This document shows positions 1 through 49,496 of a stretch of 64,000 nucleotides of DNA, one piece after another. Every line of letters starts with the position of its first letter. The first letter of the stretch is position 1. The stretch is from Cladocopium goreaui (taxonomy: Eukaryota > Sar > Dinophyceae > Suessiales > Symbiodiniaceae). A model generated the notes under the pieces. It was not told the origin of the DNA and searched no databases. It worked only from the letters and a program-made list of their open reading frames with translations. Position numbers and translations under genes: made by a program. The DNA is taken from positions 1 to 64,000 of the forward strand of contig CAMXCT020001441.1 of NCBI GenBank assembly GCA_947184155.2, read 5' to 3'.

Positions 1-7
1 GCCGCAG

Positions 8-936: not shown

Positions 937-1066
937 GACTGGGTGCTGATTTCGAAGCCGTTTGTGTATTTGTGAGATTTTGTGAGTAGTATAAAGTTAT
1001 ATAAAATTCAAGTAAGAAGTACCAATTGTTCGACTTGTATTACAGTTCAGACTCCTACTTGGCAAC

Positions 1067-4411: not shown

Positions 4412-6421
4412 TCTAGCATTTGGTGGTGCAACATTTCAAAGCACATCTTTTTTCATGAAGTGAACCACACATGTGTTTTTCAACAGACATGTTTTTTTTT
4501 GATACCCCCTATGTTAAGAGTTAAGAGCATTGAATCGAGCCGTATGTGGGTTTTTGATGGTTTTTGCTCAGTAGATCAGTAGGTAATACGACAGATTCCT
4601 GCCAAAGAATCAGGATGGACAATTGACTTGGCTTGAAATGGCTCAGTGGATCTCACAATGTTGCTTCTAAGGCGTGAATTCCACTGTCGCTGTTGAAGTA
4701 CAAAGATCAGATACGACAAAGTATGTGATATGATATTTTAGTACATTGCATTGATGTGTATATAAGTATATAACCAGTTTGGAAAATGCGGCACCCATAC
4801 TGCAATAACAACAGGGACCTCAAGAGAATCAGTTCATTTGGGCACGAGTCAAAATCGGATCAGACCCTGGGGCCCACTCCATACCCTTGAATTGCCGTGG
4901 AACGATCTACCCAAAAAAATATTTTTGATTCATACCCATACCTACTGTAGCACCAAAACCTGTAGAATTCTACGGGTGCAAGAAAAGCCGCGGGCATTTC
5001 CACATGTCGAGGAAAACCATGGAAAACCTCAGTTTTTTGGGGGAAACCTCGGGTTTTGGTTCTTAAACCCGTATTTGACCCGCACTGAACCCGTACTTTA
5101 CCGGTAATTACTAACCCGTACTTTCAGAATGGGTTGAACATATCCAAGGTTTTGCAGGAAACCGCGGGTATTTTGTATGGCCTTGAGTTTTTGCCGGTTT
5201 GGAAGCTTATTATATATATATCATATATATATATATTATATAATATAGAGGATTATATAGGTTTATCCACCGTCACTTGAGTATGTATCGATTATATAAG
5301 CATTCCCAAGAATCGTTTAGCCGTTCTACCCCGGAAAGTCTAAGGGGCATCAATCTCTTTGTGAATATTCCTTTGCGGGATGGAGCCGAAAGTAAAGATG
5401 ATTTCACCGGGTTTGAAGAGGATCATCGGGCTCAAGCCAAGTGCACGGATGGTGTGGGGGACCCATAGGATAAAAATGGGAAGTTAAAATGGTGGAGATG
5501 ATATGCTTATAATGGGGCGGGATATGTTGGGGATATAGAACCAACGTTAACCAACAAAATGGAACATATGGGATAGTATCTGGACAAATGGAGATAATAT
5601 ATGAGATATAATTGGGATATAGTGGATCAAATCTGGATAAAACATGGTAAGCCATTGATTGAGGACCTCTATTTTTTGCTGATTTATAATGGCCCCCCAA
5701 TAGTCGATAAGTGGGGAACAATTAGTTCTCAATTCGAAACCACATCAGAGATGACATCTGCAGTCTTTGCCGGTGAATCCTAAACCGTGTCTATAGAGAG
5801 ATGCGGTTACCCTCCGGTAATCAAACGTGGCAATCGGAAGTTCTCTATAAATGGAGGTTTTAACTTTAATGGAAAATAAATAGGGGATTTCCATTGCTAG
5901 GTTTGATTGCCAGAGGGTATATACATGTATATACAGCATGTTCAAGGGGTATTTAAAAGAAATGCGGGTTTGAAGATTCCCTTTGGATGTTTCTGAACAT
6001 TGGGGACCCAGAGAAATTGTTGTATACGAGCATACTTCCTCAAATTAGTGGAGTCCGATGCTTAAAAACGATGGTCTGCTTCCCTAGTTGCTGGAGTGAT
6101 ATTCGCCATTCTTATTGGTCGCGTACCCATGGATTGCTTGCGCCAAAATGATGGATGGAAGAATGTGGAATAGGGCCATCTCCAGCAGAAACTTGAACAT
6201 GGGAGACTCGAGATCTTTAAGCTGGTTCAAAATCGGGTTGAAGTGTAAAATCCTCTAGTTGTCATCCCCGCAATATTATATAAATACCCCAATATGGGCT
6301 CTCAAAATTCATATTTCAAAAAAAATGTGGGGATGGATGGGGATGGGCTCATTTGCTCTCCTGACTCTTAGATGGTTCTATCGTTTCACCTGTGTTGCAG
6401 TACCCATGCAGCGATCGCCAG
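4412..6421. other. Spacer or 5' intron region between helicase and first recognised cullin exon
   Basis: AT-rich, with a (TA)n tract near 5208-5247, an array of aaacccgta-type words around 5040-5135, and one Stowaway-like element at 5808-5919. A possible further cullin exon lies at 6174-6236: it follows a TAG|G acceptor, is open for 21 codons, contains EIFKLVQNR (compare the cullin MYKLFSR motif), and ends in phase 0 at a GT. I consider it weak. The remaining N-terminal half of the cullin must lie here or further left, but I could not identify it. Confidence 0.5.
5808..5919. mobile_element. Stowaway-like MITE, diverged copy
   Basis: Inverted ends TACCCTCCGGTAA and TGCCAGAGGGTA with TA at both borders. 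The interior (TAAATGGAGGTTTTAA) differs from other copies and is shared with solo fragments near 10310-10400 and 31440-31510. Confidence 0.6.
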
Positions 6422-9075
6422 GTGATGATGGACTGCATGTGTGAAGCAGGAGCTGTTTCAGTTCATCTCTGGGATGATCATGGCTAATACCCTTTTTCGG
6501 ATGCTTGAAAATACCCATCAGACTAAGATCAGCAGGTGCTGGTTATCACCTGGCAAGTCATGAAATTTCCTCTTCCCTTGCCCTGACCTTGCTCTGATTA
6601 GCCCATTCCTGCAGGACGGGATGTGTTAAATGACCCGGAGAAAGTGAAGGACCCAGTGTCCTTCATCACAGCGATCTTGAACCTGAAGTACAAGTGCCGC
6701 ACACGTCTCCGCGGGCAAATTTTGGGCAGTGGCTAAGCGGGGTTAAACGTATTTCAACTTGAATGGTGATAACATGTAAAAGCTGACCTACAACAGGCAA
6801 ATACACCATCCCTAAGTAACACTATCCCCAACTAACACTTTCCTCTTGGGATGGGGGATTTCAGGATCTATGTTGCTTTGGGGATAGTCAGATGGTCTAT
6901 GGATCTTATAATATGGTACATACAAACATAAACACGCAATAGGCATATTTGTAGATTACCTAGACTAAAATCGCGAAATCCGAGGTTTCCTGACCGGATT
7001 TGATTGAGGGCACGCGTGTTGCAAAGAATCACAAAATGTACTCATTTGCTGATCATTTACTGTACATATGGAGGTTTCTTAAAATGGGGGAATCCCCAAA
7101 ACCATGGGTTTCAATACTAAAATAGTCTAATTTAGGATGATTTGTGGGTACCCCTATTTTAGGAAACCCTCTCTGTACATATATACACACGCACTGTATA
7201 TGTATATAAAATTATATAAATATTTTCCCATGAAACATGGGACTTCCCCAGCCATGTTTGGTTACTCCTTAGGGTGGCCACTCTTGAAACTGTCACTATG
7301 TTTCATTCAGTCCATCAGCCCTCCCATCTCGAGAGGTTTGTGCCAACACCAGGTACGACAGGTTTGTGAAGGAATCCTTCAAAGAGAGCAAGGACTTGCG
7401 AGATTTGGGTGCAGTTGACCCCAACATGATTTACATATGTATATGCTCTAGAGAGTTTGTTTGTTTTGATCAGCATAGCTTGAACTGTCATGGTTATCAG
7501 AAATCTGTTGTTTTTCCTGACATTGGTGGCTGATCGAATTGACTCCTTGCTACGCCTTTGCAGCTTTTGGGTGTATCTACCTACCTACCTACCTACCTAT
7601 CTATCTATCTATCCATCCATCCATCCATCCATCCATCCAAGTCGACGTGTGTTTCGAATATGACCTGTGCAGTTCAATTTTATACGCAACTTTTTGTCCA
7701 CCACCATCCACTGCGTTTCTTGATTTCAGGATCGTCTGGGATGATGGGAAAAAATTGCAGGAACCTCTATAATTGCTGGCAAAAACGTGGTTTCTGGCAG
7801 ATTTTCCCAAGAAAACCAATCCACTGAGATATAGGCAGCGCATCTCCAGTCTCAAAGACATCCCTCTGAAGCAGCTTCTTGGGCCTTCGTTTTTGGACGA
7901 CCATTTTCCCCAGTTTAACTCCTAGAGTTTGACAAAAGGTGGGGGGGATGCCAGCCCAATGGAGGACTTTCAGTTGGCCTTGAAACAAGCCTTCGAGTCC
8001 TTTCTGAACAAGGCAGGTCGCCAAGACTTCCCTTGGGAATGGAGTCATAGACGTTCAAAACATCGGCAACCATGGGGCAGAAGAATATGGAACACTCCTA
8101 TTTCGCAGTACAGGCATTGAAACCATGGAAACCATTAAAGAATGTTGGGACTTACGATTTGGAGTCGCACCCAACTAAGTAGTGGTGCCATGTGCTTGCA
8201 AATGATTGCAAATAATGCATGTTTTGTGGTAAATAACTTGATTGCAATAGATTATTTCATGGATTCATCAAACAAGTTGAACAAAAAACATGATCAGAAC
8301 AGAGAATGTGTATATGTCACTTTGTGACATTTTTGCCCCCCAAGATATCCCCACTACTCCCAGGACACGCGCACGGCGCAATACTTGTCACTGTATGTGG
8401 ATGACCAGCGACTTGGGCTGTGGGATGGTTCGGGTGTGGAACATGGGGCCGATATTGCCATTTTTTAATGGAAAAACCGGTGCTTTCAACCATCAACATT
8501 TTGTGGTAACGGTTTTTTTAAAACACCCACTTGGTCATTTCTGTTCAGTTTGAGGATGTCAGCAGCAAAGTACCCAGGTTTCCACCAGGTTTGCGGCCTT
8601 TGGGCTACCCGGCTACCCCCTCTGCTGGATCCCATACTGACAGACCGGAACTTAGGATGTTCTGTCATGTTCATTTTCCAAAATTTGATACCCACTATTT
8701 AGAATGACTACAACGACTACAATCCCAGCGAATCATAGCAATTACCTTCCGATACCTCGCTACCATTCTGGGGTGTTATCGTTCTAAGTTCTGGTCATTC
8801 ACATAATGGTTCGAGTCCTGGTTTCCACACCACATAAGCAATACTACTGTGACACTCTAAGTACGCTGGAACAAGTTATCATAACCACGTAGCCTCTGGA
8901 TCGAAAAACTCCGACTTGCCCTAAGCTGGTAATGATGGCATCAGTATACATATTATATCACATAATCCCCACATGCAATAGTTGGTGCTTCCACGCACCT
9001 CGCTGAGTTCTCAGGTTCCGTAAGGGTCTCAAGGGAATGTCCAGCGACGCAGATGTCGACACGGCCCTGGAGCAG
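6422..9075 (+). CDS. CUL3-like: Cullin gene: end of the N-terminal cullin repeats
   Basis: Six exons (28, 79, 40, 48, 44 and 61 nt) encode the last helical cullin repeat, including [41 protein letters not shown] and [20 protein letters not shown]. In known cullins this arm binds the substrate adaptor (a BTB protein in the case of CUL3) and leads into the cullin homology domain. Introns here are 165 to 659 bp. Confidence 0.88.
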
Positions 9076-12000
9076 GCGACGAACTGGGAACTGGGGGGAA
9101 TTGAACCATAGAAAGTGGTGATTTTAACGATCAAAAGTGAGGACTTAACCATGAAAAATATTGATGTTTCCATCAAAAGGGGTGATTTAACATATTTAAC
9201 CGTTTAACCATCATAAATAGTTATTTATCCATCAAAAGAGGTGAGTTCACCATCAAAAATAGTAATTTATCTATCAACAGGGGGTAAATTTCACCATGAA
9301 AAATAGTGATTTAACGATAGGCAGTGGTGATTTAACCATGTACCCCCTGGTAAGCTGATAGTTTGCCGAGGAAATAGCCGTGTCTAGATGGTGTACCTTT
9401 TAAACGTGGTGGTTCTGCATAGCAATGCTAGATTACTTACTAGAAGGTAACCAATCACTAAATTTGAGGATGAAGTGATATCACATCCATCCATCCATCC
9501 ATCCATCCATCCATCCATCCATGCATGCATGCATGCATGCATACACACATACATACATACATATTTATTTATATATTTATATATTTATATTTTCATATAT
9601 TCATATATTCATATATTTATATACACATACACATGCAACCAACAATCTGAAACCCTGATGTCTGGGGGGGTCAAACGCCTTTTCTTTCCTGCACATAAAT
9701 CCATCAAATGATCGTTGAAATCAATAAATGGGTGTGGGTCAAAGTTTCAGACCTTGTGGACCACAGATATATTGCCATTGCCCATCCATTATTGGGTACC
9801 CAATTTTTACCTTGCCAAATGAATTGGGTTGTAGGGGTTGCATCCGTTGCATCCTATCAGAAAGGCTCAGACATGATTTGGATCAAAGTTTGTGTGGCAA
9901 CAAAAAGTCGTGGGATATGTACCTACTGTATGGATATTATATGTGTATACATTTGTTGCTGAAATGCGCAGTATTTCAATATCCCATAATCTCCTCGTAA
10001 TCTCCCCCTAATCTCCCCGTAATATCCACGTACTATCATGATGATATTCCGAATGATATTCCCATCATATTCCCACTGGATCGGCATGACATCCCTTTTT
10101 ATATACCATTTTAAATCAGCAGGTTTTGAACAGAACACATGCAGAGCCTTGCCATTTTGATCGACAGGTTGTCACAGTCTTCCGCTTCTTGCAAGACAAG
10201 GACGCTGTTGGTCGATCAGCTCCAAGTGCTGATGGAACATCCCCTAGAAATGAGGGGAACATCTACAGGAAAGCGTGGGTTTGACTATCAAATATGGGGG
10301 ATTTCGTGGGAAATTCATCTGTAAGTGGAGGTTTTTAATGGGGAGATCATTGAACTAAATGGAAGATTCTCCAGCACTCCATGTTTGATTACTGGAGAGT
10401 ACCCCCAGTTTCTATGGCAATTTTGATATGGATAATGATGATACACTGCAATTTGAAGTTTGCAATTTGAAGTTTCGCCTAATTTTTTTTTGGACACACC
10501 ATTTTTGGCAGGTTCGCGCCTTTGGCTTGTCCTACCTGATTTCGTTGTCACGAAACCACCATAGAGATTCAGCCCTGAAAGCGCTGCTCTGCAGGATGTC
10601 TTTGAAAACTTCTACAAACAGCACTTGTCGCGGCGTTTGCTGACAGGCCGGCTGGCCCGTTGACAAGTTGGGCCCGATTTTTGGGACAGGTTGATGTATA
10701 TTGCCATGTCGGTTGCCCCCTATATGTGTATACTCATGATATTAAACTATATATATAGATAGATTTGTCAGTTGTTGTTGATAAGATTCCCATGATATTT
10801 TGATTGTTGTTGGTCAATTCTTAGTTTTTGTAGGTCAAATCACGTCTTGTTGGTCTAACAACCATGTTCAAATCACAATCAATGTGGTCATTGCACTGTA
10901 GTTGCATTTGTAATTGCAACTTGTTTTGTTTCTGTTTTGGTTGTCAGTGTTGCTTTCCCCGTCGCTGTGGTTGTCGTGGTTGTCGTGGTTGTCGTGGTTG
11001 TCGTGGTGGTCGTGGTGGTCGTGGTTGTAGTGGTTGTCGTGGTTGTGGTTGTTGTGGTTGTTGTGGTTGTTGTGGCTGTTGTTGTTGTTGTTGTTGTTGT
11101 TGTGGTTGTTGTGGTTGTTGTGGTTGTTGTTGTTGCTGTTGCTGTTGCCGTTGCCGTTGCCGTTGTTGTTGTTGTTGTTGTTGTTGTTCTTGTTGTTGTG
11201 GTTGTTGTTGTTGTTGTTGTTTTCATCATTATTACTAGAATTCCTATCATCGGTAATATCATCGTTCTTTGGTTGTTGTTGTGGTTGCTGATATTCCCAG
11301 TACATTCCCATTATTATATGTCTCTCTGTCTCTATATAATATAATATATATATACACTGTGTCCCATGAAACCACTATATCTCTCCATTATCGTTGTTCT
11401 TTGGTTCTTCAAATGATCAACAAAATCTCCGCTGGTTCCCAGGTCGAAGTGTGAGCGATGAGGCGGAAAGGAGCATGATCTCCAAGCTCAAGAGTCCCTT
11501 GGGATCGATTTGCGCAAAAAAGATGATTTTACCTATGAAAATGGTGATTTTATGGAATATTACGATCAAAACTGGGGATATCTAACCAACGAAAATGGTG
11601 ATTAAAATTAAAGCATACTTAAGCATCGAAACTGGTGATTCAACCATATTTAACCAACAAACATGGTGATTTTTATGGAGTGTTACTGGTATGGGATATT
11701 CTGGGATAGTGAGATACTGAGGATTTCAGAAGCCATTCTGGGGATTTGAGAAGCCATTTCATGGGGTTTTAAGCATCAATAACAGGAGTTGGCTGCGGAC
11801 CTGAAAATGAGGGCATTAACTAACCCCCTTTTTATAGCCATGTGATGAAGATACACCCTGGGCTTTTAGGGGTACCATGTTTTCCAACAAACAATTTAAG
11901 ATTTTAGGCAACAAAAAATGGTGTTGAATCACCAGCAAAACGGAGTTTCGTTAACAAACAACAACTTTGAAGCGCTTAACTAAAGCTACGGGAGTTAACG

Positions 12001-15000
12001 AAACAAGTGAGGATTTAAGACGCGCGACAATGATTGATCGGACAGAAGTGGTGATGCAACCTGAAAAGACGGCCTGTGGATGTACCAAGAAAAATGGCAT
12101 ACAGATTTTCAAAAAAACATTTCAATCATAAGGGGCCTGGTGGTGAAATGCCCAATAGACCTTTTACATCCTTTTACCTTAATTGATGCTTCTTGGCCAC
12201 CAAACCTTCGATATGTTCTGCCATCAAATGCATGTCTCTTAGAGTTCGTTATTGCCATCGGCTTCGAGATACTTGCCTGCAAGGTATACAAGAGAGGGGA
12301 AAGTTACCAGCAAGAATATCGTCTAGAGTCTAGCGATGATGAAACAATGTTGGGGGCAGCATCGTTTGGTTGGTGATGACATTGTCTATGTGGGTCAAAT
12401 CTACATACCCTTTTGACACTATATCATATTCAGAAACCAATAGAAAGTGGATTTGTAAACTTATTTTCCTACTAGAAAAATGGTTTTCCAGTGAGTAAAC
12501 CGAGGGTGCTTGGGATAATGTTTAGGGTTCACGACTATAGAGGTTCACTGTGTAGCTGCAAGATATAGTTTATAGCACTCCCCAAAGAAGATAGAACAGT
12601 AAAATCCTAAATCATGGGGGATGTTGGGATTATTTTATGGGGGTTGCCATGTTTTCTTGTTTTTTTTGTCTTTTCTTTTCAACACAAACCTTGCCCCGGC
12701 GGGGCAAGGTCACCAAGATATCGCCACCGAGGTGAATGTGGTCATCAATACACCTCCAAGTTGGAGGGAATGTCGGGACTCAGAGAACCCTCGTAAACGT
12801 TTAGAAAAAGCTATCGAAAATCACCATGTTTAAGTTCGGTAAATCAACTATTTAATATGTGCCACTTTTTTTTGGCTATCTGCTAAATTTCCAGAGAACT
12901 TTTTTTTTTCCTACCATGACATGTCAATGGTAGTTGCATAGTTTGTCGTTGATTTTCTGCCAATCCCTTTGGAGAAGTCGTATCACCAAGATACTGGATG
13001 ATTTGGAAGCATGTATTTTTCTTTTCACCTCCTTTGTGCCTGACCACACATCACACAATACACATACTGTAATTAAATACAAGTACATAGTACGTACATT
13101 ATAAATAACGGTAGCAGAGGATCAATCACCCCAACCCCAAGCACCAAGCACGGGGGTGGCGGACTTCTCCTGGCTGACAAGCTGGTGGTCTCAAGTATTT
13201 CGATATTTCGTTCCAAGTTGAAATGATCGTTTCAACTAGTTGAAATGACAGTTGGTTGATGTCTCATCCTAGTTGCTTGTTTGTGAGTTGTGTGTGTGTG
13301 TGTTTTTTGTATTCAAAATAACATACGAACCAGCTAGGATCACTGTTGGATCGTTGGCTGAAGAATTGCTGCAACGGATGATGAACACTTGGTCAGATTT
13401 GCTCATCCAAACATCAGGTGGAAACTGAAAACTGGGCATGTTCCCTATGGTTTCCCAACATTTTATGGCAACTGGATGAGATCCCAAGAACCACACCCTT
13501 TTACTCAGTAGACATCATGGGTTTTCTATCCATTTCTAGACATTTCTATATGGAAGTTTCCTAAAAGTGGGATAGCCCAAAACCAAAATGGTTTCAATAC
13601 TAAAATGGTTTCATTTTGGATGATTTTGGGTACCCCTATTTCAGGAAACCCTCATATTATTCTAGAATTTCTATATGTTTATTGATCTTGGGGGCGGTCT
13701 GACATATTATTGACCCCCTAAGATGTGCTGCTGCTGCTTTCGCTGTGAAAGGCCGAACCAGCGTCCGCCTCAGGTTTCAGGACATGAAGTTGTCTGAGGA
13801 CATCATGAAGCAGTCGCCCGGTCAAGATATGGCTCGATGTTGCTGTTGGTTTAATGGTGGTTACTGGTGGTTAATGTTCGTGTTGTTTTTGGCAACTTTT
13901 GTCCAATTTGCTCTTACAAAACGGTTCAAGCAAAGGTTGAATGTTCGTCCCATTTGTGGCTGGGTAAACTTAACCCACTGACGAACGAACTACAGTACTC
14001 ACTGGGATGAATCCTCCAAAGAGACACCGATGGCTAGTTCGGGGAATTCCTATTGCCAGCCACGTTTGATGACACCAGAGGGTAAGATCTCATGATATCC
14101 CCATTGTATCCGTAATAGTACTATATATCCCTATTATCTTTCCAAGATATCCCCATTATATCCCGTAAAATCACAATTTTTGTTGGTTGAATCAGTATGT
14201 TTCATCCTTTTTTCCTGGGTATATCCACTATAAATCCACGATATCCCCAATGTCGATCCCCATGATCACCGCCACTTCTCCAGGTACAAGAACTCCTTTA
14301 CCAGTCCGTCCATGGCGCCCGCAGCCCAAGAAAGATGGAAACGTGAAGGGTCCCTGGTTGGTTTATGCTGGAAAATCACCCAAAAAATGGATGATTTAGG
14401 GGTACCACCATTTCAGGAAACATCCCATATTATATACTATTTGTTTGGGATTCAGCAGCCCTATAAAGCCATTCATAAACCCTTTATAGAAATGATACCT
14501 GGATAAAGATATCAATTCCCATTATATACCATACAAAAACCATATAGAATCATATAGATCTGGTTACAGTAACTTGTGACGACCTCACAGCGAACTCACT
14601 GGAATGATGGTTAGTTAGTAGGGGTAACTATCCCAAAATAGCCTTGTATATTGGAGGTGTTTCTATTCTTTCTCACTCAGGACAGACCGGTCCCTGTCTG
14701 CTTCTGCTGGGGTTGGACAGTAGACAGATCTCCTCCGGATTCCTCTGGTAATTTCATGATATTGAACGTAGCTATCAAAAATCACCGTTTTGAATTTTAA
14801 GTTCGGTGAATCGTATATATTTTTTAATCATGTAATGTATCTAAACGGGCCATGTTCCATAGATATGTTACGAAATGTGGCCAACCCAATGCCATAAACC
14901 TACCATTTGGGGATGGTTGGAATCCCACACATAAAAATGGTGATTTTAGGGATGGTGTATGACATTGGGTTTACCACATTATTATAATTTATCCAGATAC

Positions 15001-18000
15001 ACCAATAATATAAACATGAAATAGTATGTATACATATATAAATCATATGAGATATATGCAAATCATATATACATCATACAAAAATCACATAGAAACCTTT
15101 TAAACACCATATAAAATATGTATAGCTTAGATTCTGTATAAAACCTGTATAAAAACCATAAATTAAACAAACCCCTGGAATTCAATGCCCCAGGCGAGGC
15201 GCAGGCAGTGCTGGGCCCGCTGGACGTCCAGGCACAGGCACAAAAAACGGCTGCGGCCACCCGCAGAAAGGGGGACATTTATGATTTGTGTTCATTATAC
15301 ATATATATATACAAAGGATAAAATAATTACATGATAGACAATGTATATAAATATATGGATATGTACATATATGTATTTATACACAACATGCGAAAGAAAT
15401 AGGTATGACACCAGCCAAAATAGGGATTGAGAGTGATTCAATATTATTGAACGAATTTTGACCAATGAATGGTGTGATGGAAATGGGGCTGTCCAAAAAT
15501 AGCGGGGATTTACCCTAGCTTCAGACAAATCCGGCCAACAGTATAGTGATTTGGCAGATTTAACAGTACCAGATATGTGGTGGTTCTGGTGAACAAAGGG
15601 AGTTCTTTGAACAGGAATTGAATTGAAGCACTGAACAGCGGGGCTTCACCAACAAGAAGGGGTATGTATATACATACATGGGTATGGGTCAATATCTATT
15701 GATACCATTTTTAGAGGGATGAACATCCATTTACCAGCTATTTTGATGTTCACCAGGGGTACAAGGTTTTGACACACTGCCACATGTATATGGGTTTATG
15801 ACCAGTGAAGTGGGTGGTTTCAAATGCTACTGCTTTGGGACTTTGGGATTCCATTAGTTGGGAGGATGAACCCCGACTCATATTCTTAAGCACCGTGCAG
15901 CACTAGTCTATCAAAAGCTCATCGGAAGCCAACATCGGAACCTCAGAATGGCCCGGAAGGGCAAATCAAGGCATGGAGTATTGACAACACATTGGTAATG
16001 ATGCCTTTTGGACATCTAAACTTTGAATATATTATATAGTTATGTGGCAAACCCAATGTCATACACCATCCCCAAGATCATCATTTTTTCAATGGGAATT
16101 TCAGGATCCTAAAATGGAGGTACTGTACCATATAAGGACATATTTTGTGGGGATATTCCCTTACATAGGCCTTACATAGGCCTTATATATGGTAGGTACC
16201 TCTGGTTTAGGTTCCTGAAATGGCCATTGAATTTTATGTGTGGGATTCCAACCATCCCCAAATGCTAGGTTTATGGCAGCCAGGGGTTCCCACCACGGAA
16301 ATCTTATAGTCGCCGGCGTGTGCCCAGGGCTTCCGGCGCTGTCTTCGTCCATTGACTTGAAGGCCCGCACCAATCTTTTTGGTATCACTCGAGATGATGG
16401 GGAAGATTACAGTAGATAGAACATAGGGATACACCGATATATATATATATATATATATAGATACATATACCGAATTAGTAGATATGTATATATCCTAACA
16501 TCAGTAAACTAAATATACATATATCTGTACGTTTGTGGGGATCTCTCTCTCTCTCTTTTTATATATATATATATACACATGTATATGTATAAACAGTTTA
16601 GTATTAGAACTACTCGATCCACAGATGATCAGGTTCGGCTTTTCAGCGCTACCCAGCACCTCGCATCTCCTTTTTCAGGGGTAAAGCATCCTGGCGACAA
16701 AACTTTCCGTTTCTGGAACATCTCCAGCTTCATTCCCGTTGTTGCCCTCTAGTAAACACTGGTAAAGTGACATACCGGGGCAGCTATGGACAATCACAAT
16801 TTTTAATATGTACCCTTTGGTAATTTAACGTAGCTATTGAAAATGGCCATTTATAGTGGATTTACCCATTAATAATGGCCATTTTCAATAGCTATGTTAA
16901 ATTACCAGAGGGTAAATCATCTTCAAATGGGTCATTCTCAACGGCTCTGTTAGTTTCCGGGGTGGATGCGGGTGATCGGATTTCCGTGAGCCATGACGGC
17001 TGGCAGGTCTCCGTCCTGACCAGCGGATTTTGGCCAGGCAGTCCGAAAAAGTCAGGTGATAGCCACTGATAGCAGCAAGAGGTCCAGCATTCTGCACAGC
17101 CCCAAGGTACCTTTGCCATCATTTGCGATCACAAAATCGTTATTTTCCATTCATAGCTATGTAGTTAATGAACGATAAATTTTCCAATGATCATAGTGAA
17201 TCAGTAATATTTATAGAAATGATATACTTAACCAGTAATATATCATGCCATCTTTTCCCCAACAATTCTGATCAACAAATCCCAAGCAAGTTGAGTTGTT
17301 GCGGGCCATGAGCCCTCGCACGACGATGGTAGGACCTCCTGGAGCTCCCTGTGAGTTGCCACCGGAAGTGCAGGAGCAACAGCGCTTCGTTGCATGGCTG
17401 GCCGCTGGATTTTCTCTTTACGACCTACGTGACGTTTGAAGACTGGGCAACACATTGGCCATACATTGGCCCCTAATTTTAGGATATTTTAGGATTTTTG
17501 TTTTTGACAAAGCCAACTTTCCTGTCTTAAGCCCATCTGTGTTTCTTGGTGTGAACCATTGCCATTTTTGTCCTTACAGCTGTTGTCTATGGTTTCATTC
17601 TCAATCTACATCCCCATGACTGGCCCGGCATCTCTGGGCTTCAAAGTGTTTCAAGGGCTTCAAGCAACGGTAACCCATAAAACTTGCTTGACCCTGCAGG
17701 AGTGCTGCAGCCGCTTTGAAACTTTTTACCTGGCAAAGCACACAGGCCTCCGTGCCTGTTTTGCGGTGGAAACTATGGGGCATCAAGCACGGTATCAGTG
17801 GGCTAGGCTGTAGCAGAAATTGGAACCAGAGCCCCCATTCTGTCGATCCACCCGCTGGGACCCATGGACCGGGTACCGAATGAAGACCTTTGGAGTTTTT
17901 GAGAACATGGAGCAAAATACAGGTCTATTAAATTATGGTCCATTTATGTGTTGTTTTGCAATCTTTGTATTTCCGTTTGCATATCTTTCACAGCAATTTT

Positions 18001-21000
18001 GTGTCTTGATGAGTTGTTTTAAACGTTTCTTGTCGTTCGGTTTCTGCTCAGCGCCCAACGGTTCCAGGTCGAAAGCTCTTTTGGCAGCCACAGAACGGTT
18101 TCGCCGACATCAAGGTGCGCTTGGACCGGTTGATCCATCGCCAATCCAGCCATGGGATCGCTAGACCGACACCCTGAGGCTCAGATGCCAAAGACCAAGC
18201 ATGAATTGAACGCAGGGCGGCAAAATTCGGGCGGAGATTGCAGGGGTAAGTTGATGGTTTGCTATGGAAAATGGTCCATTTATAGATGATTTATGTAGGT
18301 GTTAAACATGGTGAGGCTATGTTAAATTACCAGAGGTAGTTGATGGGGCTGCAGGGTTAGAGTTTAAAACTGAAAAGAACAACATGGGATTTCTGATGGC
18401 ACGCCTCCGGACATTTTTGTGGTACCCAATGACTTGGTATATGCAGCAGGGTGGTAAATAGCCGTCTGCAAATGGTAGGTTTATTTACTGGGTTTGCCGG
18501 TTTATTCCACATTAATACGAAATCATTGAAGGTAGATGCTGCAGATATGATGTTGCAGTACTGGCAGTACGCGAGTGGATTCTGAAAGGCGTGAGATCCT
18601 TGAGATGAGCAGTGGCCAAGCCATATGGCGGACGCATGTTTCCTGAGGTTTTTAGATCAGCTTTACAATTTACCATGATTGAGGATTTTGCGTTTCGATC
18701 TTTTACCCTCTGGTAAACTAACATAACTATGGAAAGATCCACCATTTTCAATGGGAAAATCCACTATAAATCATCATTTTCAATAGCTATTTTGACAAAT
18801 TACCAGAGGGTATTTGGTCATATTTGGTCACCATAAGAGGCTCCAGCTCTCCACTTCCCAGGTCACAACTTATCAGATGTGCATCTTGATGCTCTTCAAC
18901 CAGCAGACCACCTGGACCTATCAGGCGATTTGAGAACCTGAAAATGAACTCATGTCCATGGTATGGACTGGTTCAAGCAATCTGACCAGTATAGGGCAAC
19001 TTTTCCGAATGCAGTTGGCTGCACACTTTTGACACACTGTGATGCAATCAACACTGAATCACTGGATCAACAATCAAACAACAATCAATCAACAGTCAAC
19101 TAACATTCAACTATATCATATTATTCAAATCATTATTCTATATATATATATATATATTTGTGTACTATTATCATCATTATTTTTATTGTCATTCTTATTA
19201 CAGTTTTATATTGCCACAGCTTCGCCACAGCTGCCACCAGGACCTGGCGGTGCGCACCAACATTCCCTTGGAGGAGTTGAAACGCCATTTGATGAGCCTC
19301 TACGTCAACCCCAAGGCTCGCGGCGTGCTGCGATGTGTTTTTGGACCGGAAAAAATTATCAAATCTGAACTCATTGGTGTATCATAGTTGATCATCAAAT
19401 TTGATATTGACATGCCAATTATAATTCTATAATATTCTATATCTATATCTATATATATATATATATCTATATATATATACACATACATACACATACACAT
19501 ATATATATATACATATATATATACATATATATATACATATATATATATATGTATGGCATATGTATATATATATGTAATGTATTACACACATCTTTTTTGG
19601 GGACCGCTTCAAGCTCTCACGGCCAAGGCCAAAATCCTGGTGAAGCTGGGGGACTCCGAGAAGAAGGAGCCGGAGGAGAGCGACCAGCGCGGAACGCCAA
19701 GGGGTTTCACCGGGGGCATCCCCTGGATTTACCTGGTGAAAATGGGGATTTACCTAGTGAAAATGGGGATTTACCTAGTGAAAATGGGGATTTACCTGGT
19801 GAAAATGGGGATTTACCTGGTGAAAATGGGGATTTTTGGTGGATTTACCCTTGGGGATTTACATAAAGATGTGGAACAGGTAAGATCTAATCAATCGATA
19901 TGAAGTGGATTTTAAATATGATAAAGCATGATAAAGCAATGGATCTTAGATACCTCTAAGACAGAAAAATCCAAGATCCATTGGTTTATCATGGTTTATG
20001 ATCTTCATTTCCTATGAAAACAATGTTTTGGAGATGAAAGTGTTTGGTATGTTTGAGGTCAAATAAGGTGGCAGAGCGCAACACATTCGAATCTGATTTG
20101 GTAAGTTAGTCCAAAATCGAAATCCACGGATCGTAGTGCTTCCAGGAGTCCCCAGAGCATCCCCGACCTGAAATTCTGATTTTCAGACACGAATTCCCTG
20201 GGGGCCTGAAACTAGGGATAGCTCCAATTCATGGCACTTTCATAGGGAACATAGTAGGGAACATGATCTCCTAAGCCACTGGATTTTAGGGTAGATACGC
20301 CGTATATAACTTAACTGATTTTCCAGATAAACCAATGTCTTTTCCTTCTCAAGATCTGAGTGAAATAGATGAGATGGAAAATGAAGAGGGCACAATCTTC
20401 TGACTGGTTGAAGAAGCTTTGTTTGAATGTATTTTTCCTAAAATCCCTTTGGTGAAGCCTGTGTGGCACCCACGATGCCTTTTTCATGTCTTATCTTATT
20501 ATATGTACATACAAATATGTGATTTGTATACATGCAACACATTCAATTCAGTTTTTTTTTTGGAATATGACTGTCTCGCGTATAGACAGCACACACACAT
20601 TGTGTAAGCATCTGAATATATATATATAAATAATATTATTATATAGTATATATTATATAATATATATATACACATACATAGTTGTGTACAAACTGTGTGC
20701 GAAGGACTGACAACATGTCTGTACATTGTGAACATGCACACCAATAAAGAAGGTGTAAGATATGTACCTTATTCACCATTACATGTTATACATATACAGG
20801 CACATCATAGACACACGACATTGTTTCTTTTGGCGGAGATACATATTTGCATGATATTGAAACATCTCATTCTTAAGTCTTAACAAAACTATCGAAGTCT
20901 GAGGTTTACAGTGAATCCTCAGTTCGAGAGCAAGCTGGTGCGAATCAAGGCTGATGCGAATCACCGTGCTTGATATGGGTAAACCCACAGATTGATTCTG

Positions 21001-22878
21001 ATGGTATAGAATCCAACTGTTTGACCATGGGGATGGTGGTACCATGAACAGGGGCTGATATCTGATATTGGAGCCCACTCATGTTGGTGGGATGACCATA
21101 GCCTATATACCATGGTTTGACCACGGCACATACTACTATGGAAAAAAACACAGATTTTTTATTGCTTACATTCTATAACCAGTTTTGTTGCTTAAACCAC
21201 CATATTTGCCCACATCATTGTATCATCAATCAACCGTTAAACAAAGATATTGCTTTTGGCGAAACCCCAATTTTCATATCCTCAGTTTTGCCGAACAGCC
21301 ATACCAATTTTGATTGGTCCCACCACCAGTATTGTTGCATATTATGGACTGCACATTAAATTAGACATGCGTTCTGTTATATGATTTATATGGCTTTGTC
21401 TCAAAATAATGGTAATGGTAAGCCACAATTTGATGGCTAAACATATTTGGCAAATTTCCAGCATTTTCAGACCCAATGACCCATTCATCACTGATCAAAG
21501 CCTGTACTTGACGGTTGAACCCCCATAAAATGGCTGAGTAAATCACCAATCTTTGGGTGCCAACCCCCATGTCAGACCAACTCTTAGAATTAGTTGAAGG
21601 GAACCATTACAGGAACCCCCTACATGCTTGTGGGAGTACAACTATGGTTTCAAGTGTCCACCGTAAAAGTTGCCCTTTATCCCATGATATCCCAAGGATG
21701 TCCCAATTCTGGTTGGTTTTACACCCATGTTCTTGTTTAGCCCCAGATTTTTGTTGATAAAAGTCCGGTTGGCTATATAATTCCAGGATATGCGTTCGTT
21801 TGAACATTTAGGGGAAGAGCCCAAATTTGATGATTATATAATCATGTTCCCCATGAAAATGATCATTGTGGTGGCATGTTAATCATCCAATTTCCAGATA
21901 GACCCACATTCATTCATCACTGGTTAAATCCCTATATTTTATCGTTAAACAACCATGTTTAAATAACAATTTGTGATTGTTACCCTCCACAAAATTGACA
22001 TAGACCCTGAAAATAGCCAAATTTTAGTGGAAACTCATCTTCCAACCCCCAGACTAATGGCAGGCTCGTCATGTGGGGTCTCAAGAATACCACAGGTTGT
22101 TTGGTCAGTATAGGGGCTTATACTGGCTTCTTGGGGGTTACAAACTATCCCACCAAGTCGTATTTCATGAGATGTTTTTTTTTTGAATGAATGATTATGA
22201 ACTATCCCATCAACCAAGTAGTATTTCACTAGATGGTTTTTTGGGGATATTTTTGTAAATGGCTCATGTTGGGAGGTTCCCCTCGTGCAGCTGAAGAGCT
22301 CGGAGACGCCGGCGGCTGGTCGGGAGGCGGATCTGAATCACCAAGCGCCTGAAAAAAAGGGGCGGATCTTAAGTTATAAACCATCGGATCATTGGCAATT
22401 AGGGTTTTAACAAGGGTTTTAACATGATTTAACTTAGAAAATAATGTTGATTTCAGAAACAACATGGGGCAAATTTGGGCTGAGCTGCAGACATGTGGAT
22501 TTTGACCGCAGAAATGAGATCATTTTGGGAACAAACATGGGGGATTTAACCAACCAAAACAGGCATATAACGCAAGCATGAGATTTTGGAGAGCAAAATT
22601 GCAGAGACATGGGGATTTTGACCAGTTAAAACAAAGTCTTCACCAAAGATGGGGATATGTGTTGACCAACAAATACGGGATATTCATGAAACAAGCTGGG
22701 GAATGATTGGTAGGGATTTGTGGAGATACTGTATTTTCTTTCAACAAGATATGCAATGATTAGTGGGTGGCAGCTTGTAGATCGTACTTCAACATATTCT
22801 GCATATATATACATATATATATATACAATTATATAAATTATATATACAGTATATATATAAGTGGTATATTCCCTTTTC

Positions 22879-22931
<53 letters not shown>

Positions 22932-25900
22932 AAATTCCCATGTTCGCTGTGACGCTTAACCGTGCTGCCAGGGCGAAAGTGGTGCGGTCGGAAGCAGTGA
23001 TGTTCCCGCAACTGTTGAAGAGGACAAAGTCGAAGTGACTGGTGGAGTGGATGGGTATCAACGACAATACCACCAATTTAAGGGTCATTGCTGTTTGTTG
23101 TTTGTTCTTACATAGTATACATACTTCATTTTGGGATGGTTAAACCATGAATACACCATTTTGGCATGGTCTAACCATTACGATTGGTTTCATGGTAGTT
23201 TAACCATTCCAAATGGAGAAGAATAACTTTCAGCAAATACTATATCAATGGATGATACATGGGGATACCTGGGGCGTTGAACCATGAACAGTTGGGCTGC
23301 TACCCAACGGCCATTTTATTTGGCAAAATGGTGACAAACCATGCATGGGACATACTCAACAAATGATATCAGGATATCAAACAACAAGAATGGATTATAA
23401 TTGGCTATTTCCCCACACATAAAATCGGGATACTACCACCAAGCAGATCTTATGAACTTTATTTCAGTGGCCATGAAGGTAGAATCTGTGCTTAAAACGG
23501 CTCCGACTTTGTCATCCAACATGAATTGATGGCCAAGAGCAACAATAAAGGCGCCATTTTATGGGGATACAATGCATTGGGAATATGATTGTCTATATAT
23601 ATATATATAATCAACATGGGGTATCCCCCAAGTTGCCATCCAACAATGCAGAACATGAATTTCCAAGCAATTGAGTGTTTTCTTTTTCTATAATTTTGAC
23701 AAAACCACATCATTCCATGTTTGAACCAGCTTGGTTTCAGGGACATATGGTGTGAAACCATGGTTTTTGTCATTGAGCTATAGTTTTCGCTTAAATCTTC
23801 CCTTAAGCCAATCCTATGGTGACGCCATCCACCGTGGTCGCCCTTGGAAAAGGATCGGAAACATTTGGTGGAGGCCAGATCTGAATCGGATGGGGTCTGG
23901 ACTGGTGAGTCAGTCCTCCCTGTGTTTTGGTCTCAAAATGGACCTTGGCAAACCTTATGAACGTGTATATAGTGAAGTACCTGTGGGGCGTAACGCACGC
24001 GCTGCGTTTATTTTTTGAACATGTTACATGTTCATGGTTTTTAGTCTATTTTGAGTGCTAGTGAGCACTGCTGAGTCACTACTGAGTCGCTACTGAGTGC
24101 TTGCTGTTTTCTAGTTTTTTGGTTGGTTTTCATTCATTTGTATCATTTGTTTTTCAATATTGTTTGCTGTTTTACGTGGGTAATTCCCTGGCAGAACTAC
24201 AGAAATGGCCACCGAGTAATCGTTATGCAATTTTTGTGGTCTTGTTTTCATGGATTTGTGCTGGATTGGATGGATGGAATTTATTGTGAACATGGTCTTA
24301 GTAAGGCTTAGTAAGGCGTAGTGAGGCTCAGTAATGCTCAATCATGTTGTGTTGGATAGCAGAGTGAATGGAATTGAGTGGTAAAACGGCCTTAGTAAGC
24401 ACTGCTAGTGCTCGGTCATTTTTTGATGGCTTTTGGGTGTTTTCGCCTCAGTAAGGCTTAGTAAGGATTAGTAAGGCTAAATAAACGCTTAGTAAATCTT
24501 AGTGTTTTTTAGTAAGGCTTACTAACACTCAGCTGAAATCAGCAAGTTGGTGTTAAAAATTGATAGTGCCAACCTTGGGGAGAGGGGTTTGAGACCAGTA
24601 CTGTGAATATTTGATTTGCCATTCTGGGAGTTGACAATATAGCAGACGAATGGGTGGTCCCTGGTGTTGGCGTCGTGTGCTTTCACCTCTCTCAGGCTCT
24701 GACGGGGATATAGATGGGGATACCCCATAGTGGGGGCTTAGTTTGTAGACAAACTATCATCATACTATACCCTCTGGTAACTTAACATAGCTATTGAAAA
24801 TGACCATAGAAATAGTGGATTTTCCCATTAATCATGGTGATTTTCCATAGCTATGTTAAATTACCAGAGGGTATACCCTCTGGAAATCAACCATGGCGAT
24901 TAGAAATCCCCAGAAACCTCCCTGGCTCGGGGATTTCCCTCGATTTCCACGTTGCTTCAGGCGGTGGTGGTTCGCGTCATGAAGAGTCGCAAAACACTGG
25001 ACAGTGGTTTTTTGGGGGAAAACACGGGCCATTGGAGGGGCATTTTTCGTGATTTAAGCCTAGGCCCTAAACATGTATCTGGTTGGTGGTTTGGAACATT
25101 TATTATTTTCCATAATATATGGGATAATCCTTCCCATTGACTAATATATTTCAAGATGGTTAAAACCACCAACCAGGTATAAACCATAGTTAAATGGTGT
25201 GGAAATATCATGACATATCCCTTATGATTTGTGGTTTACATCTGGATTATGAACACATCAACTGGCACATCCAAGTAGCTGGAGGGTAGCTCATCAAGCT
25301 CAGGTCGCGATGTCACGTTGCAAATGGTGGTTGGTTCCCCAAATGACCTTGTTTCAGGTTGGTGAAACAATATATAGCATTATACTTTATCCAGATACGT
25401 CTTCTACTCAGATATCTATATATTTCCCAGTAATCTTCCCCACATTTTCTGTGTGAAGTCTCACAGTTGTCATCACAGTTGACATGTCTTTGGGAGAGCC
25501 AACTGACGCAACGCATGCCACCTGCAGGAGCATAATCAGCTGGTTATGGAGGCGGGTGAGTCATTTCCCACTAAAACAAGATTGAAATGGGGTATACCGT
25601 ATACCCCATCAAAAAGAACAAAACCATAGCATCAAACATCATGATGCTCAAACTGTAGAGGGTTGCAACACAAACTTATTGTTTCTTACATGCCAATGCT
25701 GGTGATTTGTGGATGAGTCAAAACGTAGATGCCGTATTTGGCCGGAGTGAGCTGGGTGAGCATCCATTGAGGGTCATCCAGCGGTAAGGCCGGCACATCC
25801 CCAGGTGTTCACCCACCGGCGCCCCGTTGGACACGACCAGGTGACGCGTCATTTGACATCCCGGTTCCAGCCCTCGCCGACCCTCATCAAGCAGCGGATT

Positions 25901-26052
25901 GAGAAGCTCATTGAGAGGGAGTCTGGGTCCTCAATGGGCTGCAAGTTCCATGACTTCGGAACAAAAAAGCAACTGGTGAAAAGGATGAGGATGAGGATGG
26001 GGATGGGGATGAGGATGAGGATGACGATACAGAGAGAGAGGGAGAGACAGAC

Positions 26053-26085
<33 letters not shown>

Positions 26086-27293
26086 GATAGAGATAAAGAG
26101 ATAGAGAAAGACAGACAGACAGTCAGGCAGGCAGACAGCCAGCCAGCCAGCCAGGCAGGCAGAGAGACAGAGACAGACAGACAAAAAAGATAGATAGATA
26201 TGACTTGACAGGTTTGCCGCAATTTGGGTATTTTTTTCACCAAGCCCATGATCTATGGTTCCATGCAAGTTTGGCGGAAATTGTTCACCCCAAACTCACC
26301 TTCAGCCCACAGATATTGGCAATGTTCAGTATCAACAAGCCATTTATTTTGAAGACACTTTATGGTCAACTGATGCATCCTGAGGTACTTGGAAAGATCG
26401 CAAGGAGACAGGACTGAAACTGATCGGGGGCAACGGCAACACGGGATTAAGAGGACGCAGATGGGGATGTTAGCCACTAATAATGAGATACAACCCACAA
26501 AAACGGGGTAGAATGGATGTGAACATCCGATGACCTAGTGGGTTTGACGTGGTTTGACTACACTATATAATTGATTTTTACATATGATTTTTATTGATTT
26601 TTACATTCAATTGTTGCGTGGGGTTGACCAATATTTTGAAGTGTTGAAACCACTGGCCAGACCAGACATGGTACTTCCTGGCAGACTACGGCGTTTGCTT
26701 TGGAAAATCTGCCATGCCCAGACGCCCAGAACTTCCCTGGCATCTAAAGGGTCAAGTCAAGGCTTGTCAGCTTGGACCCGTGCGCAGATTGAAAACAATG
26801 TATATGTCGGATGATTGATGTCCTGCGCATGTATGCATGCCCTTGTATTTATGTATGTGTATGTCCACATATCCATTCTACACATATTCTAGATATCATA
26901 TCTCTACGCATGTATATGTGTATGCATAGGTTCAGATCTACAATATATATATATATATATCTTTCTCCAAGCATCTGACTTGACACGAAATGGGCAAGGT
27001 TTTTCAGGGCCGTTTCAATCTGAGAGTGTCGGCATCGCACGTGGTTCGTAGAAAACAATCGCTGACATACCAACAAATCATCGCAGGGTCTATTTATCTA
27101 AACGATTTCGTGAACGTGTACATATATCTCCACCTGTACACATACTTGCTGCGGCACTGATAAACTCGTGCAAGAAGCATATTAGACTCTTAGTCCTCAA
27201 ACACATTGGGATATGATTCAACATGTCTACTCTCTCTGATGCTTGTTGATGGGTGCAGCCAGTGCCAGGAGAGTCTACAATTACTTGGCCTAG
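6422..27293 (+). CDS. CUL3-like: Cullin (CUL3-like) gene, 30 exons traced to the stop codon; 5' end missing
   Basis: Scaffold of cullin-RING ubiquitin ligases. Exons: 6422-6449, 6615-6693, 7353-7392, 7965-8012, 8364-8407, 9015-9075, 10168-10200, 10595-10646, 11443-11493, 12732-12771, 13774-13812, 14284-14333, 15194-15231, 17007-17037, 17333-17373, 17700-17745, 18068-18114, 18179-18211, 18862-18924, 19241-19315, 19628-19681, 20068-20100, 22276-22326, 22972-23022, 23853-23873, 24961-24999, 25528-25551, 25841-25920, 26385-26399, 27269-27293. Total 1332 nt: 443 residues plus TAG, with phase kept at every junction. Signatures in order: [174 protein letters not shown]-stop. The order and wording are closest to CUL3. 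Introns: 14 GC, 8 GA and 7 GT donors, all with AG|G acceptors. The weakest joins are 14333 to 15194 and the 15-nt exon at 26385. Confidence 0.88.
7070..7174. mobile_element. Inverted-repeat element, GGAGGTTTCCTAAAATGGGG family, copy 1
   Basis: Ends GGAGGTTTCTTAAAATGGGG and CCCCTATTTTAGGAAACCCT are imperfect inverted repeats. The element is bracketed by the direct repeat GTACATAT (7062-7069 and 7175-7182), a likely 8-bp target duplication. It lies in a cullin intron. Partial relatives occur near 14375-14432, 27455-27545 and 32420-32480. Confidence 0.6.
7575..7640. repeat. Tetranucleotide microsatellite (CTAC/CTAT/CCAT)
   Basis: Runs of ctac, then ctat, then ccat in a cullin intron. ORFs over it are low-complexity and not coding. 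Confidence 0.9.
9105..9345. repeat. Degenerate tandem repeat of about 21 bp (GTGATTTAACCATCAAAAAT type)
   Basis: About ten imperfect copies of gtgatttaaccatcaaaaat in a cullin intron directly after exon 9015-9075. The same module recurs elsewhere (about 11520-11690, 19727-19850, 22500-22680, 47085-47220, 60190-60250, 62155-62260). Confidence 0.7.
9484..9625. repeat. Compound microsatellite (CATC, CATG, CATA, then ATATTTATA)
   Basis: Successive tetranucleotide runs that each differ by one base from the previous run, followed by AT-rich repeats. Intronic. Confidence 0.9.
10168..20100 (+). CDS. CUL3-like: Cullin gene: cullin homology domain (RBX/RING-binding region)
   Basis: Sixteen exons of 31 to 75 nt encode the four-helix bundle and alpha/beta region. 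It begins with [12 protein letters not shown] (exactly one 33-nt exon) and ends with NTFESDL, which fits the cullin F-x-x-N-x-x-F / S-x-L segment. The linker exons at 14284-14333 and 15194-15231 are least conserved: the segment is rich in Ala, Gln and Ser before the diagnostic [10 protein letters not shown]. The intron 18115-18178 is only 64 bp, the shortest in the gene. Confidence 0.85.
10937..11225. repeat. GTT/GGTTGTCGT-type trinucleotide-rich array
   Basis: About 290 bp of ttg/tgg/tcg triplets in a cullin intron. It produces long artificial poly-Val, poly-Cys, poly-Leu, poly-Thr and poly-Asn reading frames on both strands, none of which I regard as genes. Confidence 0.9.
13547..13657. mobile_element. 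Inverted-repeat element, GGAGGTTTCCTAAAATGGGG family, copy 2
   Basis: Starts TATATGGAAGTTTCCTAAAA, ends CTATTTCAGGAAACCCTCAT. The interior (ggtttcaatactaaaatggt, ggatgattttgggtacccc) closely matches copy 1. It is in the cullin intron before exon 13774. Confidence 0.6.
14874..14980. mobile_element. MITE with AATGTGG-AACCCAATG inverted ends
   Basis: Left end AATGTGGCCAACCCAATGCC and right end GACATTGGGTTTACCACATT are inverted repeats. A rearranged relative in opposite orientation spans about 16041-16285. Both lie in cullin introns. Confidence 0.6.
16811..16914. mobile_element. Stowaway-like MITE (CCCTYTGG family), 104 bp
   Basis: Near-palindromic: TACCCTTTGGTAATTTAACG at the left and TTAAATTACCAGAGGGTA at the right, with AAAATGGCCATTT motifs inside. 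It lies 92 bp upstream of the 31-nt cullin exon. Confidence 0.75.
18704..18812. mobile_element. Stowaway-like MITE (CCCTYTGG family)
   Basis: TACCCTCTGGTAAACTAACA at the left, AATTACCAGAGGGTA at the right, TA on both sides. It is in the cullin intron before exon 18862-18924. Confidence 0.75.
19727..19850. repeat. 21-bp tandem repeat (ATGGGGATTTACCTGGTGAAA)
   Basis: Five near-identical 21-bp units starting 46 bp after cullin exon 19628-19681. Open in two frames because the period is a multiple of three, but the GA splice donor at 19682 places it in the intron. Confidence 0.85.
22276..27293 (+). CDS. CUL3-like: Cullin gene: C-terminal winged-helix and neddylation region
   Basis: Exons 22276-22326 and 22972-23022 give a variable acidic stretch ending in TVEE. 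The 21-nt exon 23853-23873 supplies DRKHLVE. Exon 24961-24999 supplies [13 protein letters not shown]; the Lys codon at 24982-24984 aligns with the NEDD8 acceptor lysine of cullins (I-V-R-I-M-K). Exon 25528-25551 is 24 nt. Exon 25841-25920 gives [19 protein letters not shown]. The last two tiny exons (15 and 25 nt) give YLERS-RVYNYLA and TAG at 27291-27293, the standard cullin C-terminus though a few residues shorter than typical. Neddylation is what activates cullin ligases, so the pathway is predicted to be conserved here. Confidence 0.85.
22878..22931. repeat. (GTT)18 microsatellite
   Basis: Pure trinucleotide run in the cullin intron, 40 bp before exon 22972-23022. Confidence 0.95.
24298..24535. 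repeat. Degenerate TTAGTAAGGC decamer repeat
   Basis: Irregular copies of ttagtaaggc/tcagtaatgc at 24298-24340 and 24449-24535 in the cullin intron between exons 23853 and 24961. Confidence 0.7.
24768..24873. mobile_element. Stowaway-like MITE (CCCTYTGG family)
   Basis: TACCCTCTGGTAACTTAACA at the left, TTAAATTACCAGAGGGTA at the right. A second left end (TACCCTCTGG) follows immediately at 24872, suggesting a nested or partial second copy. It lies in the intron before the neddylation-site exon. Confidence 0.75.
25079..25176. mobile_element. MITE with CTGGTTGGTGGTTT inverted ends, copy 1
   Basis: Perfect terminal inverted repeat CTGGTTGGTGGTTT / AAACCACCAACCAG (one base spacing difference), flanked by GTAT on both sides. 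It lies in the cullin intron between 24999 and 25528. Confidence 0.7.
25985..26200. repeat. Purine-rich microsatellites (AGGATG)n, (AG)n, (GATA)n, (CAGG)n
   Basis: A mixed simple-sequence tract on the purine strand right after cullin exon 25841-25920. Reading frames through it are low-complexity. Confidence 0.9.
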
Positions 27294-27955
27294 CTACCTG
27301 AGGCTCTTGAAGAAAAGTGGCGCAGTTCTGATGGCTAAGCACTACTTGGAACATGTGCCAACACCTGAATGATCGAATAATGCCTTTCCCCCATTCATAT
27401 TCAACACCCGCCAGAAAAACATGGGAAAGCAGGGGATTTACACCTTTCTTCTCATTTTTTTGGGGTTTCCTGAAATGTGGCTACCCCAAATCAGTGGTTT
27501 TCCCTATCGATAAATAAGCAATTTGGGAACACCTCCATTTTGACAAAATAGAATGGGGATTCAGGGATGCAAAAAATGGCCGACCAAGCCGTTTTGGGCC
27601 AAGAAATCCGATTTGGGATTGATCATTGACTGTAACAATACTGACAATAATAGCAATCATGATAAAACATGATAAAACTACTGTAATCTTTAAACGTAAT
27701 ATGATATTAATATTAAAGAATAAATAACAATATCCTGACTCCTGACATTAATCTACTGTAGCAATAATAATTAATAATAATAATGTATATCATTTTATAT
27801 CCATACGTATATGATACAACCCCTGGGATACATGGCACTAATGACATTAGTGCCAGCTAGGGGTTAATGAGTACTAATAGTTATGAGATGACGATGTGAA
27901 TCCGCTGTGAAAACAATCCAGGTTGATCCAGGTTGGTATCCCGTGGTATTCCTGT

Positions 27956-28059
27956 TTCCCTCTGGTAATTTAACATAGCTATTGAAAATGGCCATTTATA
28001 GTGGATTTACCCATTAACAATAGTGATTTTCCATAGCTATGTTAGTTTACCAGAGGGTA
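27956..28059. mobile_element. Stowaway-like MITE (CCCTYTGG family), 104 bp
   Basis: Ends CCCTCTGGTAATTTAACATA and GTTAGTTTACCAGAGGG. The interior is almost identical to the copies at 16811 and 37341. Confidence 0.75.
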
Positions 28060-49433: not shown

Positions 49434-49496
49434 CTCCTTTCGCTCTTCTTCTATTCTCTCTTAAGGCGGGGGCGGTGCCGCCGGAGCGCCACGAAA

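Follow-up and report, generated by a model that had tools for sequence, protein, structure and literature searches.

A Cullin-3-type gene in very short exons in the dinoflagellate Cladocopium goreaui

The gene in the window

The window analysed here comprises 64,000 nt (C1441:1-64000) of an assembly of 1.17 Gb in 6202 contigs, which was searched alongside it. Between positions 6422 and 27293 of its forward strand, the hand-corrected model places 29 exons, which are 21-80 nt long (mean 45, median 44), and 28 intervening introns, which measure 64-2022 nt (mean 699 nt). When joined, these exons are free of stop codons from 6422 to a TAG at 27291-27293 and specify a product of 435 amino acids. The original prediction, a cullin gene in tiny in-phase exons that continues to a C-terminal YLA and a stop, is borne out as a whole by this 435-aa reading in 29 in-phase exons, by Pfam cullin matches and by a colinear paralogue. 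Its counts of 30 exons and 444 codons become 29 and 435, and its upper exon length of 80 nt holds, while the shortest exon is 21 nt instead of 15 nt and the mean moves from 44 to 45 nt. It was also correct that ordinary ORF calling would miss the gene, since just 6 of the 29 exons lie within stop-free frames of at least 100 codons.

The first exon within the window (6422..6449, 28 nt) has the true 5' exons off the contig, and is followed by intron A (6450..6614), which is shared with a copy on contig C305 and absent from a paralogue on contig C546. Exons 2-11 (6615..6693, 7353..7392, 7965..8012, 8364..8407, 9015..9075, 10168..10200, 10595..10646, 11443..11493, 12732..12771 and 13774..13812) were placed by spliced pair alignment together with the gene model, as were exons 14-18 (17007..17037, 17333..17373, 17700..17745, 18068..18114 and 18179..18211), 19 (18862..18924), 22 (20904..20949), 23 (22972..23022), 26 (25528..25551) and 28 (26385..26411). 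Intron B, the eighteenth intron (18212..18861), is present in the window and C305 copies and absent from C546 and from the cullins on C6191 and C2026. Exon 20 (19241..19315) is the last one common to the window copy and C305, exon 21 (19628..19686) was joined by hand from two aligner pieces, exon 24 (23853..23873) is the shortest at 21 nt, exon 27 (25841..25920) encodes the core of the neddylation domain, and exon 29 (27269..27293), extended by hand to the stop, ends with RVYNYLA and the TAG.

The junctions of the window gene were set by comparison of genomic copies, and the least certain ones flank a variable linker, where the 3' end of exon 12 (14284..14333) was placed by hand to hold the frame and the 5' end of exon 13 (16328..16362) is likewise uncertain. 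Both borders were moved during hand correction, so the frame across the linker in the stop-free reading is a hand-set one, and the linker could conceal one further exon. A consensus border is missing from the C546 counterpart at this point, and the C305 equivalent of exon 12 ends at a TC donor. The window has a GC content of 0.418, and the introns of the gene have 40.8% GC versus 52.2% for the exons.

Several introns contain repeats. A palindromic MITE of ~108 bp occupies 16808..16917 in intron 13, where the C305 copy lacks it; further copies lie in intron B (18702..18812), in intron 24 (24768..24875) and 3' of the stop codon (27954-28060, palindromic and also ~108 bp). For intron 18 the reverse case is seen, in that the C305 copy carries an insertion absent from the window copy. 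With up to 3 mismatches allowed, a 32-base arm of the element is matched 27,208 times across the genome, versus 0 times for the control. The MITE was considered as an intron maker and rejected, as no window intron consists of it and it sits inside introns. Elsewhere in the window, repeats of 30, 72 and 16 bp form arrays with extended stop-free frames at 48834-51729 and 55808-56342, and the 100 N bases of the window start at 50864. Rfam and tRNA scans of the window gave no matches.

The original prediction had proposed a profile search of the spliced product, and this matched both the cullin domain (PF00888, E = 2.3e-122, 410 bits against a cut-off of 33.2, profile positions 285-620 of 620) and the neddylation domain (PF10557, E = 2.2e-27, 95 bits against a cut-off of 36.9). 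Among solved structures, the best relative is Cullin-3 (363 bits, E = 2e-107, over the C-terminal half), followed by CUL4B (291 bits), CUL1 (239), CUL2 (219) and CUL5 (152), so by these pairwise bit scores, as opposed to a tree, the product appears closer to CUL3 than to CUL1, 2, 4 and 5. In exon 25 (24961..24999), the AAG codon at 24982-24984 encodes the lysine of a VRVMK motif that aligns with VRIMK of Cullin-3, whose lysine we take to be the neddylated residue (712 in human CUL3). In Cullin-3, the C-terminus binds RBX1 and the N-terminus binds BTB-type adaptors. By analogy, the protein is a predicted scaffold of a cullin-RING ubiquitin ligase that would hold RBX1 C-terminally and BTB-type adaptors N-terminally. 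The adaptor-binding region is off the contig in the window copy, and the N-terminal exons of C546 match CUL3 in sequence, with stretches of 17 aa at 82% and 16 aa at 81% identity; the value for a 23-aa stretch, 56%, is approximate. The 16-aa and 23-aa stretches match human Cullin-3.

Genomic copies and selection

When the genome was searched with PF00888 in six frames, seven places were listed at E ≤ 0.001, one of them on C546 and none in the window; with PF10557 one window exon was matched, below the cut-off. The blank PF00888 result for the window is a warning that profile searches of such genomes can overlook conserved genes. The translation at the C546 place closely resembles the window residues, and a blastn comparison of window 1-32000 with C546:488001-528000 yielded 24 colinear hits of exon size between window positions 6419 and 25914 amid many repeat matches (a non-colinear match at window 14059 was dropped). 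A spliced pair alignment of window 4001-28500 with C546:497001-523500 used base identity, GT, GC or GA donors and AG acceptors with AGG favoured, and no cullin sequence. It scored 763, and 717 once repeats were masked; the unmasked alignment also proposed three AT-rich blocks (window 4379-5247), which were discarded as low-complexity matches. Control scores were 19.5 with C546 reversed, 24.6 with C546 reverse-complemented and 29.7 for two CCT-gene loci of the same genome, which are smaller (15.5 kb). The CCT pair was rejected as an in-genome yardstick because its loci have no DNA-level alignment, and it was used as a null. Exons this short could mislead if their borders were chosen freely, and the gene would then be an artefact of chance matches picked out across 21 kb. 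Their recovery from two genomic loci without a cullin model, at a score of 717 versus at most 29.7, makes this exceedingly improbable.

The C546 paralogue shares the exons and their order, and its introns no longer align with those of the window. Its 43 listed exons, of which two linker exons and one N-terminal exon are weak, extend over ~34.5 kb back to approximately C546:486731, and it is the only near-complete copy seen, the window being without the 5' half and C305 without the 3' exons. Window 1-19447 recurs at C305:50599-69225, the aligned blocks having 83-97% identity except for one at 71%. Base 1 of the window aligns to C305:50599, 1.2 kb past a cullin exon that ends at C305:49391 and within a 7.6-kb intron. 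The start of the gene at the last N-terminal repeat, as originally described, is therefore produced by a contig edge inside an intron, and the search of window 1-6421 found no 5' exons because C305 shows that stretch to be intron. The same contig-start intron holds a 207-bp tandem repeat of ~10 units (window 2284-4339), which is also found in C305.

The upstream cullin exons of C305 reach approximately C305:40959 and include many of the N-terminal Cullin-3-like exons of C546. The earliest N-terminal exons were not found in C305:7001-42000, and no exons beyond the equivalent of window 19447 were found in the remaining 17.8 kb searched. In the alignment of C305 with C546, the first block (C305:40954-40986) is weak and was retained from its AG border onward, blocks of 5 and 22 nt that would add spurious exons and one C546-only intron were dropped, and several C305 exon ends were placed by analogy to the window. 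The match between C305 and the window ends at an AT microsatellite, where truncation and an assembly break are both possible.

Over 434 codons, the window and C546 copies differ with dS 1.24 and dN 0.068 (dN/dS 0.055). The window and C305 copies, compared over 312 codons, show eight synonymous changes and one nonsynonymous change (dN 0.0013, dS 0.043, dN/dS 0.031), and their introns differ at 478 of 10,083 aligned positions (4.7%). About nine synonymous changes would be expected at the intron rate; silent sites thus change as introns do, a pattern that speaks against the exons having undergone gene conversion. The single nonsynonymous change, which sits at the hand-placed end of the linker, compares with ~35 expected at the intron rate, or ~18 if one copy drifts (P = 4e-7). 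For most of the interval since the two diverged, both copies have been maintained as coding sequences. Exons and protein have been kept while introns drifted, which rules out both a chance collection of exons and a dead gene. A pseudogene in decay, or the remnant of a segmental duplication, could be suspected from the lack of a 5' part in the window copy and, in C305, of the 3' exons after window 19447 and, in the fetched stretch, of the first N-terminal exons. We consider this very unlikely, given a missing 5' part that is explained by the contig edge, 29 stop-free exons (with the linker frame set by hand), the two low dN/dS values and the shortage of nonsynonymous changes. On this comparative evidence, the region very probably represents the 3' portion of a functional Cullin-3-type nuclear gene in a dinoflagellate.

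The C305 copy also bears on the number of genes. C1441 and C305 might represent a single locus, as two haplotypes or as two versions in the assembly, instead of two genes, which would fit the match of window 1-19447 to C305 and breakpoints that coincide with a contig edge and an AT microsatellite. Intron divergence of 4.7%, many indels and differing MITE insertions are large for one locus, however, and on balance we regard a single locus as possible but doubtful.

Splice sites, intron gain and exon recognition

The donors of the 28 window introns are GC in 14 cases, GA in eight and GT in six, and all 28 acceptors are AG/G, a constancy that is partly imposed by the aligner and includes one hand-set border. 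In the published Cladocopium analysis, donors are 43.6% GC, 36.6% GT and 19.8% GA and the acceptor is AGG in 96.1% of cases (PMC9412976). With GT, GC or GA donors and AG/G acceptors, the introns have the sequence features of dinoflagellate-type spliceosomal introns and probably belong to that class. The 21-mer of the spliced leader occurs at 251 places in the assembly with up to 1 mismatch (control, 0), which marks the host as a dinoflagellate.

The window/C305 gene has ~42 intron positions, three of which are absent from C546: intron A, intron B and C305:42688-43178. No intron specific to C546 was found in this comparison, apart from the one implied by the dropped 5-nt block. The site of intron B is also uninterrupted in the C6191 and C2026 cullins, and by parsimony its sequence distribution indicates a gain. 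The sites of intron A and of C305:42688-43178 are uninterrupted in the intron-poor C2026 gene, which is weaker evidence of gain than for B. In one test, intron A had just one other copy, in C305, and its assignment to a large repeat family was set aside. A GCAGGA repeat flanking it was also dismissed as a signature, being near the chance expectation from AG/GA borders. The 25-nt intron ends showed no excess of pairing over shuffled partners in the window (28 introns), C546 (38) or C305 (12 and 19), the nearest approach being the 12-intron set, whose longest-match mean was reached by 310 of 5000 shuffles; intron-end pairing was accordingly discarded both as an introner signature and as a bridge between splice sites. 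The case for introns A and B as introners is weak. The exons would be joined by the ordinary spliceosome, and the fragmentation of the gene may reflect repeated intron insertion at AG/G proto-splice sites, mostly before the window and C546 paralogues split and with a few later gains, after which MITEs and simple repeats would have lengthened the introns.

The splice sites themselves carry little information. Across 27 window introns, donors hold ~5.0 bits and acceptors ~7.5 bits, mostly in the first G of the intron, the AG/G and the exon-final AG, with no clear pyrimidine tract in the same 27 introns; one linker intron each was left out of these statistics for the window and C546, leaving 27 and 37. 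Singling out 28 sites in 20,874 positions requires ~9.5 bits for each kind of site, and there are 252 AGG triplets versus 28 acceptors. Composition adds a further feature. In the outermost 25 nt at either end of an intron, GC is 57-59% in the window (28 introns) and 56-57% in C546 (38 introns). Further in, it drops to 37-43% (50-75 nt) and 35-39% (75-100 nt) across the sets from the window, C546 and the N-terminal part of C305. These GC-rich rims span 25-50 nt (window 6450-27268, C546:491594-521231), and none of 5,000 random placements within the same introns reached the observed GC of the 50-nt ends, for 26 window, 33 C546 and 12 C305 N-terminal introns. Apart from repeats, the window and C546 introns cannot be aligned, so the rims in each are separate observations.

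Between the window and C305, rim positions 0-25 differ less often, at 27 of 908 sites versus 353 of 6,796 deep sites (Fisher P = 0.003, or 0.009 with 57 forced positions set aside). The rims showed no excess of pairing with each other over shuffled partners. With approximate exon ends, the fall in GC is also present for six exons of C6191, where GC rises again beyond 130 nt, and three of C2646, and is hardly visible for two of C571. A limited literature search returned no paper on such GC rims in dinoflagellates, which does not imply that they are absent from print. Since the splice sites are so poor in information, exon recognition probably uses composition too, each exon lying in a GC-rich island of ~100 nt within AT-rich introns, and the rims are a candidate exon-marking cue. 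A stronger proposal is that, for such short exons in dinoflagellates, the compositional island matters more to recognition than the splice-site sequence does; this is speculative and we think it rather unlikely, although, if true, an exon-island code would permit GT, GC or GA donors and exons down to 21 nt. The gene is a clean natural case of a spliceosome finding exons with GT, GC and GA donors and no clear pyrimidine tract, and its three copies, which split at different times and have unconstrained introns between matching exons, allow conserved features to be told apart from the rest. The GC rims and this three-copy comparison are the most interesting leads.

Exon density and comparison with known systems

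The window gene has 28 introns in 1.31 kb, or 21.4 per kb. A similar Cladocopium assembly has published means of 17.2 exons per gene, 120 nt per exon and 16.2 introns in 2018 bp (PMC9412976). These published means convert to 8.0 introns per kb, and the window gene is ~2.7 times as dense. Under an exponential model of exon length, which is crude, means of 85, 100 and 120 nt predict ~58, 4.6 and 0.2 of 45,322 genes with 29 exons averaging 45 nt or less. The original description of the gene as extreme even among intron-rich protists is upheld only in part, by the 2.7-fold density, and is tempered by a crude model in which 0.2-58 such genes would be expected.

MCM matches in the genome give a second yardstick: 24 of 32 run 48-129 nt (for example five on C513, MCM positions 48-213), the other eight, in long frames, being set aside as probably bacterial, and the yardstick is biased against short exons. 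Full-length intronless GroEL-type frames are present on C1 and C2380, and C1 also has long AAA-type frames, which suggests that the assembly includes bacterial contigs. Two other cullins have longer exons. On C6191, six stretches taken as exons measure 66-144 nt (excluding a gapped match of 258 nt), and C2026:7845-10435 holds a cullin in one 515-codon frame with few introns and two stops in its last matched stretch, possibly a retroposed copy.

The architecture may then be ordinary, the gene falling at the short end of the exon-length distribution in an intron-filled genome. The published means, the short MCM matches and the modelled numbers of such genes favour this explanation, against which stand the longer exons of the C6191 and C2026 cullins, the crudeness of the model and the tendency of profile-match yardsticks to overlook short exons. 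We lean slightly towards it. The exon density is an outlier, in the strong tail of a known dinoflagellate architecture, and is not proof of a special mechanism.

The closest protein system is Cullin-3, the scaffold of BTB-CUL3-RBX1 ligases, which the product resembles in its C-terminal half, its neddylation domain and the lysine in place. It is unlike Cullin-3 in being divided into 29 exons for 435 codons in the window and in a linker after approximately residue 180 that differs in length and varies between paralogues. In gene structure, the reported features of intron-rich Symbiodiniaceae genes (Cladocopium goreaui SCF055) are shared in the GT, GC and GA donors, the AG/G acceptors and the many introns per gene of 0.7-0.8 kb, while the 45 nt per exon found here differs from their mean of 120 nt (PMC9412976). 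The Amorphochlora genome, with a mean of 101 nt per exon, is comparable in its long introns, AT repeats and gains at AG/GN sites, although its genome mean is ~9.3 introns per kb versus 21.4 here. Finally, introner-driven intron gain has been described in dinoflagellates (Roy et al. 2023, as summarised in PMC11453091), and the gene shares with it lineage-specific intron gain in a dinoflagellate, but differs in that intron A has one other copy and the intron ends of the window gene are without inverted repeats.
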